Assembly (NCBI GenBank): GCA_019429275.1
Contig: JAHYJC010000001.1
Coordinates: forward strand, 62,001-126,000
DNA: 64,000 nt
Reading direction: 5' to 3'
Source: Lentimicrobium sp.
GTDB lineage: Bacteria > Bacteroidota > Bacteroidia > Bacteroidales > Lentimicrobiaceae
Shown: positions 1,685 through 43,956 of the stretch, one piece after another
How the letters are laid out: every line of letters starts with the position of its first letter
Numbering within the stretch: the first letter of the stretch is position 1
Position numbers and translations under genes: made by a program
The notes under the pieces: generated by a model
Database searches by the model: none
Told to the model about the DNA's origin: nothing
The model's input: only the letters and a program-made list of their open reading frames with translations

Positions 1685-2070
1685 ATTATTAGAGTTTATG
1701 GATATTTCGATTTAAGAAATACTAAACAGGGGGGCAAGTTACGCCTTTTTTAAAGACACACAAGCCCATTGCCCCATTTTTTTCATTCCAAAAATACATC
1801 AATTTCAATTACAATTGTGAGATTCAGGTTCAAAAAGACCGAAATTTATTGATCCCATTTCAGTGACAAATGTAAATTAATTTGCGACTTTAAAAATAGG
1901 CCATCAGTGAATAAAGAAATAAAATCATTTGAAATCTATATTTTGACGCCGGAAACTATGAAATAAGGTACTTTTATCATAGGTTTGCCAATGATTTTGG
2001 GTAGAAAATTTTAAACTATTCCATTGCCGTGCGTTATCAGAATATCATTAATGCATTTAAATTTTCAGAA
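1685..2070. other. Divergent intergenic region
   Basis: This 386-bp AT-rich gap separates two divergent genes. On the minus strand a TACATTTG box (1874 to 1867) fits the Bacteroidota -7 consensus and could drive the propeller gene with a leader of about 180 nt. No clear -7 box, hairpin or repeat was recognised for the plus-strand peptidase gene. Confidence 0.4.
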
Positions 2071-3258
2071 ATGAGAAAGTTGTTTTACAGTGGTTTGTTG
2101 ATTGCAATTGCAGCAACACCAACAATCGTTAATGGGCAGGATAGCCTGGCCATTGCAGAAAAAAAATTCAGGTTTGATGTTAAATATGAGATTCCTGTTA
2201 CACCTGTTAAAAACCAGAATCGTAGTGGAACATGCTGGAGTTTTGCAGCAGTTTCCTTTGTAGAATCTGAATTACTCAGGCTTGGCGAAGGGGAAAAAGA
2301 CCTTTCTGAAATGTTTTATGTAAATCTGGCTTACAGAGATAAAGCCCAGAGATATATAAGGTATCATGGCAACAGCAACTTTGGCCCCGGAGGCCAGGCG
2401 CATGATGTCATTAATGCCATTAAAAAATATGAATTTGTTACTGAAGATGAATATCCCGGAATTATCCCCGGTGAAACCTCACACAACCACGGCGAACTAA
2501 ATACAGTGCTGAAAAGTTTTCTCAGCGCCCTTCTTACCCCGGGAAGCGGAAAAATTTCACAGGCTTGGTTCAATGCCTATCAGGGCATTCTCGATGCCTA
2601 TATGGGACCGTTACCTTTGGATTCAAAAACAAAAAAAAACCGGGAAAAATCTTCAAAATTTAATCCGGAAGATTACCTTGAAATTACCTCTTATCTGCAT
2701 CATCCGTTTTATTCGTGGATAAACCTCGAAATCCCCGACAACTGGTCGCAGGACAAATATTTCAATATTCCGATCGATGAAATGATGTCGGTTATTTTTA
2801 CTGCAATTGAAAAAGGTTACACCATTTGCTGGGATGGAGATGTAAGCGATAAAGGTTTTTCACATGCAAACGGCCTGGCCATTTTGCCTGAAAAGGATTT
2901 ACTATCAATGGATACAATGGAGCGTGAAAGGTGGGAGTTACTCACTGAAAAGGATAAAAATGCTGAATTATACAACTTTGAAGTACCAGGCCATGAGAAA
3001 AAAGTCACGCAGGAAATGAGGCAAGTCGCATTCGACAGTCACCTTTCCACCGACGATCATCTCATGCATCTTACTGGTATTATGGAAGATCAGAACGGAA
3101 CCCGTTATTTGTTAACAAAAAACTCATGGGCCGCAAACAGCAATAAGTTCGGTGGCTTCCTTAAAATGTCGGAAGCCTATGTCCGTATGAACACCATTGC
3201 CATTATGGTCCATAAGGATGCTCTTCCGGATAGCATTTCAAAGAGAATGAAAAATTAG
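2071..3258 (+). CDS. Exported C1B (bleomycin hydrolase/PepC-type) cysteine peptidase
   Basis: The 395-residue product has the papain-fold signature of the bleomycin hydrolase family: oxyanion Gln at about residue 49, catalytic Cys55 in GTCWSF, His at about 330 in DDHLMHLTG and Asn at about 351 in KNSW. An upstream in-frame GTG at 2029 is possible, but the ATG at 2071 is chosen because it places a clean signal peptide (MRKLFYSG... to VNGQ) at the N-terminus. Most C1B enzymes are cytosolic aminopeptidases, so export suggests a periplasmic or surface role, as in some Bacteroidota relatives. A 256-bp mobile element begins 12 bp after the stop codon. Confidence 0.88.
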   Translation: MRKLFYSGLLIAIAATPTIVNGQDSLAIAEKKFRFDVKYEIPVTPVKNQNRSGTCWSFAAVSFVESELLRLGEGEKDLSEMFYVNLAYRDKAQRYIRYHGNSNFGPGGQAHDVINAIKKYEFVTEDEYPGIIPGETSHNHGELNTVLKSFLSALLTPGSGKISQAWFNAYQGILDAYMGPLPLDSKTKKNREKSSKFNPEDYLEITSYLHHPFYSWINLEIPDNWSQDKYFNIPIDEMMSVIFTAIEKGYTICWDGDVSDKGFSHANGLAILPEKDLLSMDTMERERWELLTEKDKNAELYNFEVPGHEKKVTQEMRQVAFDSHLSTDDHLMHLTGIMEDQNGTRYLLTKNSWAANSNKFGGFLKMSEAYVRMNTIAIMVHKDALPDSISKRMKN

Positions 3259-3270
3259 ATGATTTAAAAT

Positions 3271-3526
3271 CACTGTTATCCGATAAAATCTTTAATAAAA
3301 CTCTGGATCCTTTGCTGGTATTGTAAAAGGTAATATTACGCTACTCTGGAGCTTACTTTTTGGTTTAACCATATTTTACTACAAATATTACGCAGATCTG
3401 CTGCTGTAAAATTGCTACAGAATAGCAAAATATTTGTAGTCAGTAGGTTATCAGAATTGAAAATGAGCTACAGAGTAGAAAGATATTATAATCTCCAAAT
3501 GTTTGGAAATTAACCGGACAACAGTG
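3271..3526. mobile_element. 256-bp MITE-like element, copy 1
   Basis: The element begins CACTGTTATCCG and ends CGGACAACAGTG; 14 of the outer 17 positions are complementary. It is flanked by 9-bp direct repeats, ATTTAAAAT (3262-3270) and ATTTAAGAT (3527-3535), differing at one base. It matches the copy at 42645-42900 over its full length without gaps, with about 18 substitutions. No convincing coding sequence is inside; an 84-codon antisense frame overlapping it is not kept in copy 2's context. It includes three hairpin-type modules described under copy 2 and a fourth stem, TTGCTA (3412-3417) with TAGCAA (3423-3428). The features fit a non-autonomous DDE-transposon derivative. The parental IS is not in the window. 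Confidence 0.85.
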
Positions 3527-3552
3527 ATTTAAGATCCTGAAATCCTGAAAAG

Positions 3553-3577
3553 ACTCTCTGATCCGGGAGTTTTTTTT
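3553..3577 (+). terminator. Intrinsic terminator, probably of the C1B peptidase gene
   Basis: A stem of about six pairs (ACTCTC with GGGAGT, one T-G pair) is followed by eight T residues at 3570-3577. It now lies 295 bp after the peptidase stop, but without the inserted element and one target duplicate it would be only about 30 bp from it. The element therefore probably landed between the gene and its terminator. Confidence 0.55.
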
Positions 3578-3706
3578 GTTAAATGAACTTACCCATTTAA
3601 GTTTCAATGTGCAAACAAATTCACCCCTGTGTTCCTTAAATACTGCATAATCAGAAGGTTTAACATTTTTTAACAGCGAAGACCGCATTAACAAAGGGCG
3701 CTGGTG

Positions 3707-3714
3707 TAATTTTG
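3707..3714 (+). promoter_or_regulatory. Putative -7 box TAATTTTG for the moxR/bat cluster
   Basis: TAATTTTG matches the Bacteroidota consensus TAnnTTTG and ends 17 bp before the moxR ATG. No strong -33 TTG element was identified. Confidence 0.5.
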
Positions 3715-3731
3715 CAAAAAACTATAAAACC

Positions 3732-4724
3732 ATGATTGAAACTGATATCAAGGAATTAAACGATCGGATTCAAAGAGAAAGTGCATTCATCGATTTGATT
3801 GATGTGGAAATGCACAGGGTCATTGTCGGACAAAAGCATATGGTAGAGCGATTGCTCATCGGACTTTTATCAAACGGGCATATTCTGCTTGAAGGTGTGC
3901 CAGGTCTCGCCAAAACACTGGCCATTAAATCGCTGGCTAATATAATTGATGCAAAATTCAGCCGCATTCAGTTTACGCCCGATTTATTGCCGGCCGACTT
4001 AATCGGAACTTTGATCTATAGCCAGAAAAAAGAAGAATTCATGGTCAGGAAAGGGCCAATTTTCGCCAATTTTATACTTGCTGATGAAATTAACCGCTCA
4101 CCTGCCAAAGTTCAGAGTGCACTCCTTGAAGCCATGCAGGAGCGACAAGTTACCATTGGTGATGAAACCTATAGCCTGCCCGAGCCTTTCCTTGTGCTTG
4201 CTACTCAAAATCCAATAGAACAGGAAGGAACCTATCCGCTTCCTGAAGCACAGGTTGATCGTTTTATGCTTAAAGTTGTGATAGGCTACCCTACCCGCGA
4301 AGAAGAAAAACTGATCATGAGGCAGAACATGGAGGAAGTTCAGCCCAGAACGCAAACCATTATCACTCCAGAACAAATTCTGAAGGCCAGACAACTGACA
4401 CGGGAAGTTTATCTTGATGAAAAAATTGAAAATTACATAACAGATATCGTTTTTTCGACGCGTTTCCCGGCAGAAAACAAACTGAAGAAATTCGAAGGGC
4501 TCATTTCATACGGAGCTTCACCCCGTGCAAGTATCAATATGGCTCTCGCAGCAAAAGCTTATGCATTTATCAAGCGCAGAGGGTATGTTATCCCCGAAGA
4601 CGTCAGGGCAGTTGCTCACGATGTCATGCGTCACCGAATTGGCCTTACTTACGAAGCCGAAGCCGAAAATGTTTCAACCAGCGATATCATCAATGAAATC
4701 CTGAATACTGTTGAAGTTCCTTAG
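3732..4724 (+). CDS. moxR: MoxR-family AAA+ ATPase
   Basis: The 330-residue protein has Walker A GVPGLAKT at residues 55-62, Walker B ILADEI at 115-120, and the conserved MoxR stretch around ATQNPIEQEGTYPLPEAQ-DRF near 160-180. MoxR ATPases are chaperone-like proteins that usually act together with von Willebrand A (VWA) domain proteins encoded next to them, which is the arrangement here. It is the first gene of the Bat cluster; the DUF58 ORF follows after only about 24 bp. Start is the ATG 17 bp downstream of a Bacteroidota-type -7 box. Confidence 0.95.
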   Translation: MIETDIKELNDRIQRESAFIDLIDVEMHRVIVGQKHMVERLLIGLLSNGHILLEGVPGLAKTLAIKSLANIIDAKFSRIQFTPDLLPADLIGTLIYSQKKEEFMVRKGPIFANFILADEINRSPAKVQSALLEAMQERQVTIGDETYSLPEPFLVLATQNPIEQEGTYPLPEAQVDRFMLKVVIGYPTREEEKLIMRQNMEEVQPRTQTIITPEQILKARQLTREVYLDEKIENYITDIVFSTRFPAENKLKKFEGLISYGASPRASINMALAAKAYAFIKRRGYVIPEDVRAVAHDVMRHRIGLTYEAEAENVSTSDIINEILNTVEVP

Positions 4725-41466: not shown

Positions 41467-42468
41467 TTATTTATTCTCACACTGGCTTGCTGTAATTGCA
41501 ACCAGATTTACGATATCGCTGACTGAGCAACCCCTTGAGAGGTCATTGATGGGTGCAGCCATTCCCTGAAGAACAGGGCCGATGGCTTCGGCACCAGCCA
41601 GTCTTTGTACCAGTTTATAAGCAATATTTCCACATTCAAGATTTGGAAATACCAATACATTAGCCTTGCCGGCAACCTTGCTTCCGGGCGCTTTTTGCAT
41701 TCCTACAGCCTCAACAATAGCAGCATCAGCCTGCAACTCACCATCGATTTCAAGGTTGGGATCAAGCTCCCTTACAATACGTGTGGCTTCAATTACTTTA
41801 TCGCAAAATTCGTGCCTGGCACTTCCCTTGGTAGAAAAGCTCAACATTGCAACTCTTGGTTCTATGCCTGCAATGGCGCGGGCAGTCTGAGCTGTTGATA
41901 CTGCAATTTCAGCCAGTTCAGCAGCAGTAGGATCGGGATGGACGGCACAATCAGCAAAGACAAGAAGATTGTCTTTCACATATGGATTGTCCTTTAAAAG
42001 CATGAGGAATGCACCCGAAACAACACTTATTCCAGGCAGAGTCTTGATAATCTGAAATGCCGGCTTGAGTACATTTCCTGTAGCATTAATCGCGCCTGCA
42101 ACTTCTCCGTCGGCATCACCCGATTTTATAAGTAGGGTAGCCAGATAAAGAGGATTTTTTACCAGAGCACCAGCCTCTTGCAAAGTGAGTCCTTTGGATT
42201 TTCTGATTTCATAAAGCAGCGCTGCATAACGATCCTTTTCAGGATTGTTTTCAGGATCAATAATCCGGGCACGTGAAATATTTTCCAGATTTAATTCTTT
42301 AGCCTTAATTTCTATTTCTGATTTGTTTCCAAGCAAAATAATTCTTGCAATCTTTTCTTTCAGAATTATTTCGGCAGCTTTCAGGGTTCTTTCCTCGGAT
42401 CCTTCGGGAAGTACAATACATTTATCAAGTTTAATTGCTTTATTCTTGATTCTATTCATTAATGTCAT
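41467..42468 (-). CDS. pta: Phosphate acetyltransferase
   Basis: The 333-residue protein is the catalytic-domain-only form of Pta: VLPEGSEERTLKAAEII at the start, DGEVAGA(I)NATGNVLKPA in the middle, and VFPNLECGNIAYKLVQRLAGAEAIGP(V)LQG near the end. It interconverts acetyl-CoA and acetyl phosphate. First gene of the pta-hbd-ackA group, with a -7 box 48 nt upstream. Confidence 0.95.
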   Translation of the reverse strand: MTLMNRIKNKAIKLDKCIVLPEGSEERTLKAAEIILKEKIARIILLGNKSEIEIKAKELNLENISRARIIDPENNPEKDRYAALLYEIRKSKGLTLQEAGALVKNPLYLATLLIKSGDADGEVAGAINATGNVLKPAFQIIKTLPGISVVSGAFLMLLKDNPYVKDNLLVFADCAVHPDPTAAELAEIAVSTAQTARAIAGIEPRVAMLSFSTKGSARHEFCDKVIEATRIVRELDPNLEIDGELQADAAIVEAVGMQKAPGSKVAGKANVLVFPNLECGNIAYKLVQRLAGAEAIGPVLQGMAAPINDLSRGCSVSDIVNLVAITASQCENK

Positions 42469-42515
42469 GGCAGATGTTGTATTTTAGGCGACTGCAGATG
42501 TATGTTTGAGGGCTG

Positions 42516-42523
42516 CAAAGTTA
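42516..42523 (-). promoter_or_regulatory. Putative -7 box TAACTTTG for pta-hbd-ackA
   Basis: The minus strand reads TAACTTTG 47 nt upstream of the pta ATG. Confidence 0.5.
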
Positions 42524-42644
42524 TGTTTTAATCCTAACAGCTACAATGGAATTCAACTAAATATAATAATTAAAAATAATAAGAGCAAGTGCTTGAAAAA
42601 CCTCTTAAAATTGTCGTTGATCAATATAAATACATAAATATTAT

Positions 42645-42900
42645 CACTGATGTCCGGTAAAATCTTAAATAAAACTCTGAATCCATTGCTGGTATTGTAA
42701 AAGGTAATATTACGCTCCTCTGGAGCTTACTTTTTGGTTTAACCATATTTTACTGCAAATATTACGCAGCTCTGCTGCTGAAAAATTGCCACAGAATAGC
42801 AAAAGATTTTTAGTCAGTAGGTTATCAGAATTGAAAATGAGCTACAAAGTAGCGTGATATTATAATCTCCAAATGTTCGGAAATTAACCGGACAACAGTG
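42645..42900. mobile_element. 256-bp MITE-like element, copy 2
   Basis: Bounded by CACTGATGTCCGGT and the inverted end ACCGGACAACAGTG (15 of 17 outer positions complementary), with a perfect 9-bp flanking duplication AAATATTAT at 42636-42644 and 42901-42909. Inside are three 5-bp hairpins with 3-nt loops: GCTCC-TCT-GGAGC (42714-42726), GCAGC-TCT-GCTGC (42766-42778) and GCTAC-AAA-GTAGC (42841-42853). Each has an AATATTAC-like box on its outer side, the third in inverted orientation. No coding sequence is apparent. The 9-bp duplication and terminal repeats indicate DDE-type transposition in trans; the mobilising IS is not here. Confidence 0.88.
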
Positions 42901-43004
42901 AAATATTATTTTACTTCCTTAATATTATTTTACAACCTCTGTAAATTTAAAAATAGCTCCACCTTATTAGACAAGGCTTTATGATTTCATGAAGTAAAAA
43001 ACAC

Positions 43005-43012
43005 TAAATTTG
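43005..43012 (+). promoter_or_regulatory. Putative -7 box TAAATTTG for the DUF4271-hemD group
   Basis: TAAATTTG ends eight nt before the ATG at 43021, so the predicted leader is only a few nucleotides. Confidence 0.5.
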
Positions 43013-43020
43013 CAGGCCTT

Positions 43021-43956
43021 ATGCAAATCGTCAATACGATTCATCCGGCCAGCGCTATTCAAACATTTCAATGGAGAAATACTCCTATAGAAACAGCTGT
43101 TGAACTTCCGGAAAAGGCAATGACCTATGCTGATTACCTGACCGACAGTTTAAACCCTGCAAGGCCCGACACTAATTTTAATTTTGAGTTAAAGAATATT
43201 ACCTACCCTTCTGACTCACTTGCTGAAGCAAAATCAGAAAAAATATTTCCCTCATTCATTATAACGGAGCCTTCCGGATATGGCGAAAAATTGCCAATAA
43301 ATCGCAAAGAATTGAACCACGACTGGATAACGATACTCATTTTTCTTGGAATTGGATTGCTGGCCTTGATAAAGCATTTTTATCCACGGAGGTTGAAGCA
43401 GATTTTTTTAGCTACCTATGCAAAAAGATATGTTGGTCAGCTGGCAAGAGATGGTAATTTAAATCGGGAAAGAATCTCACCCGGACTTGGATTCATTGCC
43501 GCGGTTTCATTTTCAACCATAATCTACGGATTTACTGAAAAAACCGGCATTTTGAACATGACCGGTTTTAGTGAGGTCAAAGTTTTTTTGCTTATAGCCG
43601 CAGGAATTGCAATTTTGTGGTTTTTAAGAAGAGCAATTATAACACTAACAGGATTTTTATACAGATCGTATGCTGCAACAGATATTTTTCAGCTTAATGA
43701 TTTGTTGTTTACTATCGCCCCGGGAGTAGTGATATTTCCGATTGCAATAGGCTGGTTTTTCACAAAATCGGACTATTTGCTTTATGCCGGTGGAGTAATA
43801 ATTGTGATTTTTATGATTGGTCGTTTGTACCGAAATTTAATTGGAGGATTTCAAGTGCAATCGTTTTCGGGTATTTACTTTTTTTTGTATTTTTGCACAC
43901 TCGAAATTTTACCGCTGGCTATAGGGTTTAAAATATATAAAATCCTTTTACAGTAA
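43021..43956 (+). CDS. DUF4271 membrane protein
   Basis: The 311-residue protein has an N-terminal soluble stretch of about 105 residues and then about seven membrane helices, from DWITILIFLGIGLLALIKHFYP to the end. Size, topology and position directly upstream of hemD are those of the DUF4271 family of Bacteroidota. The function is unknown; linkage to hemD and rnpA is conserved but not explanatory. It is the first gene of a plus-strand group that runs to at least the S41 peptidase. Confidence 0.85.
   Translation: MQIVNTIHPASAIQTFQWRNTPIETAVELPEKAMTYADYLTDSLNPARPDTNFNFELKNITYPSDSLAEAKSEKIFPSFIITEPSGYGEKLPINRKELNHDWITILIFLGIGLLALIKHFYPRRLKQIFLATYAKRYVGQLARDGNLNRERISPGLGFIAAVSFSTIIYGFTEKTGILNMTGFSEVKVFLLIAAGIAILWFLRRAIITLTGFLYRSYAATDIFQLNDLLFTIAPGVVIFPIAIGWFFTKSDYLLYAGGVIIVIFMIGRLYRNLIGGFQVQSFSGIYFFLYFCTLEILPLAIGFKIYKILLQ

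Follow-up and report, generated by a model that had tools for sequence, protein, structure and literature searches.

Hairpin modules inside a miniature transposable element of Lentimicrobium and their link to IS200-like Y1 transposases in Bacteroidota

Described palindrome systems and the Lentimicrobium hairpins

The closest described relatives of the hairpins reported here are the REPtrons, in which repetitive extragenic palindromes (REPs), also arranged as REP doublets forming hairpins (REPINs) or as bacterial interspersed mosaic elements (BIMEs), go together with REP-associated tyrosine transposases (RAYTs, or TnpAREP). Our hairpins lie inside a 256 bp miniature inverted-repeat transposable element (MITE) of Lentimicrobium sp. 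(assembly GCA_019429275.1), in a stretch of 64,000 nucleotides (contig JAHYJC010000001.1, positions 62,001 to 126,000) hereafter called the window. As in REPtrons, they are short extragenic palindromes, found as singles, inverted pairs and clusters and specific to the Y1 HUH gene that they flank. According to the sections of one study that deal with the substrates, TnpAREP enzymes cut single-strand REPs at CT or CA, and some of the REPs studied share with the present modules stems of 5 bp or a GCT loop (PMC8266576). The likeness to REPs, proposed in an earlier note on this DNA, holds for the hairpins but not for their tag: in canonical REPs the hairpin has GT[AG]G at its 5' foot, a feature that the modules lack; their tag is CTAY, separated from the hairpin by nine bases on its 5' side (read from the opposite strand, hairpin-N9-RTAG). 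Likewise, RAYT enzymes have the motif Y---NP, whereas the enzymes linked to the modules have Y-x-x-NQ-x-x-HH.

In the published classification, subclass 1.2 of TnpA-Y1 has the motifs DH[IV]H, WQ and YIKNQKEHH, a length of about 148 aa and a distribution in Cyanobacteria and Bacteroidetes, and the part that describes it gives 'REP: no' (PMC6006769). The enzymes considered here resemble this subclass in DH[IV]H, WQ and YIxNQxxHH, in a length of about 150 aa and in their occurrence in Bacteroidetes (PMC6006769). The same part of that source reports atypical structures beside subclass 2.6 (PMC6006769), which is not the module-linked group because of its Y---NP motif. GTAG and CGTC repeats and TIRtrons have also been described, in an account whose main text names Bacteroidetes once, for CGTC repeats for which no transposase was found (PMC3733652). 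TIRtrons and their TIRYTs are similar to our case in having Y1 transposases between inverted repeats unlike GTAG REPs, some of them double palindromes and some repeated in the genome, but the main text of that account, figures and additional files aside, contains neither a CTAY-N9 rule nor stem covariation (PMC3733652). IS200/IS605 elements share the Pfam family PF01797 and hairpins near the gene ends; in the present case, however, the copies within one genome appear divergent (for example, in genome G246 the enzyme matches to the query are 100, 56, 48 and 38% identical) and the hairpins occur in inverted outward pairs and dispersed alone. REPs are mentioned only in general terms in the relevant part of a further source (PMC8040213), and no publication on a CTAY-N9-hairpin repeat was found in the open-access literature, figures and supplements aside.

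On the evidence given below, we consider it probable that the hairpins are REP-type sites, cognate to IS200-like transposases of TnpA-Y1 subclass 1.2, which travel as passengers of MITEs of the DDE type.

Anatomy, distribution and stem covariation of the modules

The general unit consists of CTAY, nine bases and a 5 bp hairpin with a loop of 3-4 bases, the nine bases being AAATATTNC in the branch of the window. Units are arranged in X-Y pairs with a spacing of about 51 bp, in which Y has CTAY and X usually does not, and as inverted pairs of such pairs. In the MITE copy that we call copy 2, four modules follow each other in the order X, Y, Y', X' (+ + - -). Module X (42706-42726, plus strand) is made of the box AATATTAC (42706-42713) and the hairpin GCTCC-TCT-GGAGC (42714-42726), and folds as single-stranded DNA at -3.8 kcal/mol (z -2.1). 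Module Y (42758-42778, plus strand), 52 bp after X and an R1 hit of 30.3 bits, has the same box (42758-42765) and the hairpin GCAGC-TCT-GCTGC (42766-42778). On the minus strand, Y' (42788-42810) joins the hairpin GCTAT-TCT-GTGGC (42788-42800) to a degraded box, and X' (42841-42861) joins AATATCAC (42854-42861) to the hairpin GCTAC-TTT-GTAGC (42841-42853), which reads GCTAC-AAA-GTAGC on the plus strand. The earlier note had named three hairpins beside such boxes, the third on the opposite strand, and all three can be read directly at their positions; the unit, however, has four, the minus-strand hairpin at 42788-42800 having been overlooked. The box AATATTAC occurs 12 times in the window versus 3.2 ± 1.8 times in shuffled sequence, and 12 occurrences were reached in none of 100 shuffles. 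A likeness to the geminivirus nonanucleotide, in the form TAATATTAC, was considered and rejected, because other enzymes of the clade are accompanied by different boxes.

Between the window genome (G000) and the same-genus genome G016, two stems are altered on both sides with pairing kept (GCTCC/GGAGC and GCCCC/GGGGC; GCAGC/GCTGC and GCGGC/GCCGC), and the stem of Y', which has three of five Watson-Crick pairs in copy 2, has five of five in three G016 copies. Similarly, L162 and L215 are one locus in two Flavobacterium species, in which one stem is altered on both sides and compensated.

The modules are widespread in the phylum. A scan of contigs with the box fixed and three stem bases per side free gave at least 117 stretches; among the matches listed, to which the match counts in this and the next paragraph refer, 105 stretches come by title from Bacteroidota, 3 from one Chlorobiota isolate, 5 from a 'bacterium' and 4 from other groups, and the four matches in named organisms beyond Bacteroidota and Chlorobiota (L133, L138, L242, L243) have imperfect stems. 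A strict pattern scan found matches in no more than 9 of the 395 phylum genomes. Of 138 matches selected by their box, 113 are fully complementary at the three free stem bases, where 1/64 would be expected, and these 113 comprise 18 perfect stem types; with the whole hairpin freed, 122 of 159 are paired, in 20 types. These matches are not independent, since some loci share one genome. Over 115 distinct modules chosen by their box, 91.7% of cells are paired versus 65.0 ± 1.4 after shuffling; the covariation score of 0.628 compares with 0.166 ± 0.016, and none of 500 shuffles gave one as high; slid controls were 29-50% paired. The scan pattern partly sets the outermost and innermost stem pairs and leaves the three pairs between them unconstrained, where most double changes fall. 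Two other measures were not clearly above the shuffles, namely pairs with a double change (reached in 107 of 500) and further pair types (57 of 500). The covariation that the earlier note had suspected is therefore strong over the 115 modules and shows between genomes and between module families, with the reservation for the window genome discussed below.

Among same-strand neighbours within 120 bp, 58 of 72 are spaced 49-54 bp, and in 43 of 60 pairs spaced 48-56 bp the first module lacks CTA and the second has it. Only 5 of 130 modules lie in frames of at least 200 aa, although such frames cover 76.5% of positions. The modules are thus short, extragenic, repeated palindromes, often in inverted pairs, as REPs are; genome G492 has at least 46 of them by the model, whose counts are minimum values because no more than 150 or 127 candidates per genome were scored. 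Outside the MITE they occur as singles, pairs, inverted tetrads and tandem arrays, the last without MITE ends in genome G002, and the idea of REP-type, repeated and reshuffled units that recur outside the element was borne out by these forms, by a second MITE described below, by the G002 arrays and across the phylum.

Some arrangements are recorded here in their own right. The many contigs of G492 hold several same-strand pairs of modules about 400-600 bp apart; a Saprospiraceae contig (L136, 5879-6950) has five minus- and five plus-strand modules facing outward around a gap of about 620 bp; and Marinifilum flexuosum (L146, 2461-2995) has four GCAAC modules with a period of 169-172 bp.

Y1 transposase genes flanked by modules

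The enzymes linked to the modules match PF01797 and the NCBIfam IS200 model above cut-off, and their matches in the PDB are transposases, including that of ISHp608. With the NCBI REP transposase model, by contrast, P0001, one of two enzymes used as queries, scores 32.6 at a cut-off of 80, and the other, P0002, has no match at 0.001. Both carry DHIH, WQ and YIENQEEHH or YILNQDEHH, in agreement with the motifs of subclass 1.2. The RAYT motif MPNHxH was not found in the 0.86 Mb of the at least 117 pattern loci; since the relevant enzymes have PDHIH, this motif is too narrow and its absence is no evidence against a link.

Eight module-bearing genomes contain 27 Y1_Tnp hits (two being pieces of one broken gene), and modules are close to four of them: an array of eight strict-scan modules stands directly before the only Y1 gene found in G002, in G364 the gene has modules on either side, in G246 a four-module unit lies near it, and in G210 a module with a poorer box. 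The arrangement of a REPtron, with repeats beside a Y1 gene and elsewhere in the genome, is thus seen in relatives and not in the window genome. In the search with P0002 (30 loci), modules stood at 6 of 6 genes at least 59% identical, the nearest within 200 bp, and at 1 of 24 below this value (p = 1.2e-5); in the search with P0001 (30 loci), they stood at 6 of 9 genes at least 74% identical and at 1 of 21 below (p = 8.8e-4). The strict scan overlooks near-modules, as at L358, and among the P0001 positives, L326 consists of a poor box some 440 bp away from its gene. Several Y1 genes without a strict module have related modules that differ from it in box and stem. One Y1 gene of lower similarity (L367, G505:C25) is accompanied by eight strict-scan modules, with stems GCAAC and AGGGC, on opposite strands.

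The distance between CTAY and the hairpin peaks at nine bases, with 105 hits versus 17 at eight, 26 at ten and at most 10 at each other gap from 0 to 25, and the control tag CATY, which was not deduplicated, gave no peak at nine (9 hits, within a range of 3-27 over all gaps). Outward CTAY-N9-hairpins lie within 300 bp, on either side, of 26 of 39 genes of the MANTY type, so called from the usual start of the protein, and of 5 of 43 other Y1 genes (p = 2.6e-7; 82 distinct proteins out of 94 Y1 loci, the remainder being duplicates or frameless by the rule used), whereas subclass 1.2 was published without REPs in the part of the source that treats it (PMC6006769). Near the Y1 gene these hairpins reach 2.74 per kb (65 hits), about 60 times the 0.045 per kb (3 hits) found more than 600 bp away. 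Downstream, with gaps of 5-12 allowed, they were found at 25 of 66 genes that bear the 1.2 motif, 0.14 being expected from shuffles, and at none of 8 class 2 genes. Moreover, 17 of the 47 loci given, out of the 94 Y1 loci, have them on both sides, and the left stem equals the right one in 9 of these 17 versus 11% of cross pairs (permutation p = 1e-4). Relatedness of the genes favours such a result, so that the cases within one genome weigh most: three genomes each hold two both-sided genes with different hairpins.

At a larger scale, modules are present in 10 of 18 genomes with a strong P0002 match (E <= 1e-40) and in 6 of 42 without, among 60 genomes (p = 0.003), and three of these six, namely G000, G007 and G016, have their model hits inside MITE copies. 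In addition, G012 provides a sequence link between cargo and enzyme: a BLAST match to the core of the second MITE (G012:C50:8702-8781) lies some 38 bp away from a gene whose identity to P0002 is 71%. As a hold-out, a plasmid collection was searched once the CTAY-N9 rule had been fixed, and two of the seven matching records are from Bacteroidota. In Bernardetia sp. Wsw4-3y2 (WP_338815653.1, which starts MANVY; one of two places in the record), a four-hairpin unit (- - + +) stands directly upstream of tnpA; its stems are GTTGC/GCAAC, its boxes AATATT and CTACAAATATT. Downstream, the fetched stretch has no such hairpin. In Persicobacter (L397), which belongs to another clade, no CTAY-N9 hairpin was found, and one at gap eight was. 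Among class 1.1 controls, none of three tnpA genes beside tnpB, in three of the five other plasmid records, has the unit.

We propose that an IS200-like HUH/Y1 transposase, of a clade whose proteins mostly start with MANTY, recognises the modules as single-stranded DNA; in genomes that have this enzyme, the modules flank its gene and are also scattered through intergenic DNA. If it works like TnpAREP, it would bind the strand in its folded form and nick it near the tag, and presumably mobilise it; the stem would be free to vary while pairing holds, its sequence following the particular enzyme.

A number of observations weigh against this proposal. In the window genome, modules are near none of the 7 Y1_Tnp hits, within about 1.5 kb, and the best P0002 matches are only 30-38% identical, so a close cognate enzyme was not found there; the proximity to IS200 or RAYT genes that the earlier note had pointed to is therefore seen in relatives, where IS200-like Y1 genes are flanked, but not in the genome of the window. 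Pairing there is imperfect in 14 of the 28 stems that 7 copies with 4 modules each provide: module 3 is affected in every copy, modules 1 and 2 in three copies apiece and module 4 in a single one. In G016 the count is 1 of 12. Stem changes in the window genome are thus often uncompensated, an outcome that the earlier note had named as speaking against covariation; it is local and outweighed by the wider data, and the comparison of the two genomes points to decay within the window genome and compensation between genomes. As for the enzymes, P0001 and P0002 were picked because modules flank them and are included in the counts, and both the identity cuts and the MANTY grouping were set after the data had been seen. 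For the downstream flank alone, genes with the 1.2 motif do not differ significantly from other Y1 genes (25 of 66 versus 3 of 15, p = 0.24), and the either-flank test, with the MANTY clade split off post hoc, came after this non-significant one; 13 of the 39 MANTY-type genes have no outward CTAY-N9-hairpin within 300 bp, and the left and right stems differ at 8 of the 17 both-sided genes. The co-occurrence over genomes is significant but loose, its enzyme cut was chosen afterwards, and G012 is missed at this cut despite its modules. Finally, subclass 1.2 was assigned solely by the printed motifs, and the Bernardetia protein has DHTH, which deviates from DH[IV]H, with YVLNQPEHH.

The carrier MITEs and alternative explanations

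Copy 2 of the MITE (42645-42900, 256 bp) has the inverted ends CACTGATGTCCGGT...ACCGGACAACAGTG, of the type CACTG..CAGTG, and lies between exact 9 bp target duplications AAATATTAT at 42636-42644 and 42901-42909. Copy 1 (3271-3526) has the same four modules with one mispair per stem, as the earlier note had observed for the first two (L006), and a 9 bp duplication with one mismatch. The window genome holds seven copies, two of them inside the window and one broken by a contig end, and all seven carry hairpin modules; among 40 relatives searched, G016 has three further copies of 77-79% identity and a 42-base fragment, and G007 short matches to the MITE core only. Of 9 copies, 8 are 255-257 bp long (L010 has 284), and 6 have perfectly matching 9 bp duplications (L001-L005, L015); one has one mismatch, and the other two have two. 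Terminal inverted repeats and a target duplication of fixed size are those of a DDE-type MITE, and at L062 a frame with DUF4372 and DDE_Tnp_1 begins about 50 bp inside the end CACTGTTGTCCGGTTAA, which appears to be that of the MITE; this single end is present in the assembly, the contig start cutting the transposase gene. We take the 256 bp element to be a MITE of a DDE insertion sequence, presumably IS4-like, the complete form of which, in the genus of the window, would carry CACTGTTGTCCGG ends. Its size, its terminal inverted repeats, its 9 bp duplications and the end apparently in common with a DUF4372 and DDE_Tnp_1 transposase are those of such MITEs, from which it differs in holding REP-type modules as cargo. 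The mobile element suspected in the earlier note is therefore a MITE with a 9 bp duplication, of the DDE type and not of IS200.

The window genome also contains a second MITE (L008), which shares the X Y Y' X' core and has stems of its own (GGTGC, GCCAC) and other ends, GGGCCTGCTGAAAAAC. Matches to it, whole or partial, were found at 22 places in G007 (34 pieces, counted by hand), and the 6 bp duplication of this MITE is exact at 4 of 15 loci tried (L008, L081, L116, L118). One four-module core would thus have become, in the lineage of the window, internal cargo of two MITE families; the DDE transposase would move the whole 256 bp, so that the hairpins would be passengers, decaying without an enzyme of their own. 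One-ended relatives of the second MITE were seen at L110-L114 (G000:C43, C22, C38, C73, C21), with one end of the GGG-CTGCTGAAAAACTC type, X- and Y-like hairpins and then other sequence; three meet contig ends, and the five are perhaps parts of a longer repeated element. A class 2 Y1-like gene near a CACTG-like end (L066, G000:C50) was rejected as partner, no modules being present. This gene (2994-3734) has near-identical six-residue repeats containing QNN after the HUH region, and stands beside a single end, CATTGTTGTCCGGTTAA, whose partner was not seen.

Conserved subterminal sites are common in transposons, and since all seven MITE copies of the window genome hold modules, the hairpins might be sites at which the DDE transposase of the MITE binds or processes the ends, the boxes and stems being part of that element and the link to IS200-like genes incidental. 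We regard this as very improbable and largely refuted: the same core lies in the second MITE, with unrelated ends and another duplication size, bare modules lacking ends of this kind occur in tandem arrays and throughout the phylum, and seven other loci with CACTG-type ends (L062-L068, that of the DDE gene included) have no true module, only loose AT-rich hairpins. It seems improbable, too, that the hairpins act as RNA, as terminators, stabilisers of mRNA ends or regulatory RNA, and owe their spread to a benefit at gene ends. They are extragenic and able to fold, and effects of the RNA type are considered for REPs elsewhere, according to the part of an account that touches on them (PMC3733652), but no Rfam family reaches its gathering score in the window, the short stems have only -1.9 to -4.4 kcal/mol as DNA, and the concentration at the flanks of one transposase clade would be left without explanation. 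Moreover, stems with a single mismatch show no excess of G.T over A.C (5 versus 6; small numbers), and hence no sign of G.U tolerance on one strand. Some modules may nevertheless have an RNA side effect.

Quasipalindrome correction, in which template switching during copying perfects palindromes, is known in bacteria, and it could generate covariation with no function; the compensated change at the orthologous locus L162/L215 could be one such event. Mismatches persist, however, in the 14 of 28 stems of the window genome, so that correction is not automatic, and the nine-base distance to CTAY and the match between left and right stems are not explained by it. We therefore find this account unlikely in itself, although such correction could act together with selection.

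With regard to the surroundings of the MITE, with gene names read from the frames, copy 2 lies in the interval 42469-43020 between a phosphate acetyltransferase-like gene (41467-42468, minus strand) and a membrane protein gene (43021-43956, plus strand), and since the two are divergent it may touch both promoters. Copy 1, in the interval 3259-3731, starts 12 bp beyond the stop codon of a gene for a papain-like peptidase (2029-3258), with a MoxR-type ATPase gene (3732-4724) after it.

Returning to the reading of the hairpins as REP-type sites of a Y1 transposase, we lean slightly towards a broader form of it, in which subclass 1.2, described as having neither REPs nor IS ends, would drive a REP-like system throughout Bacteroidota, made of CTAY-N9-hairpin X-Y pairs, with the stem as a changeable lock matched to the enzyme and with sites that DDE MITEs carry and spread without their own enzyme. 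If this is true, HUH endonucleases published without a partner would gain one, together with a testable substrate, a class of REPs with a different tag and spacing would be added, and a natural series of enzymes and hairpins would be at hand on how Y1 transposases read structure versus sequence. Two unrelated transposition systems would be nested in one short element, and the modules may account for one source of the dispersed hairpin repeats in Bacteroidota.
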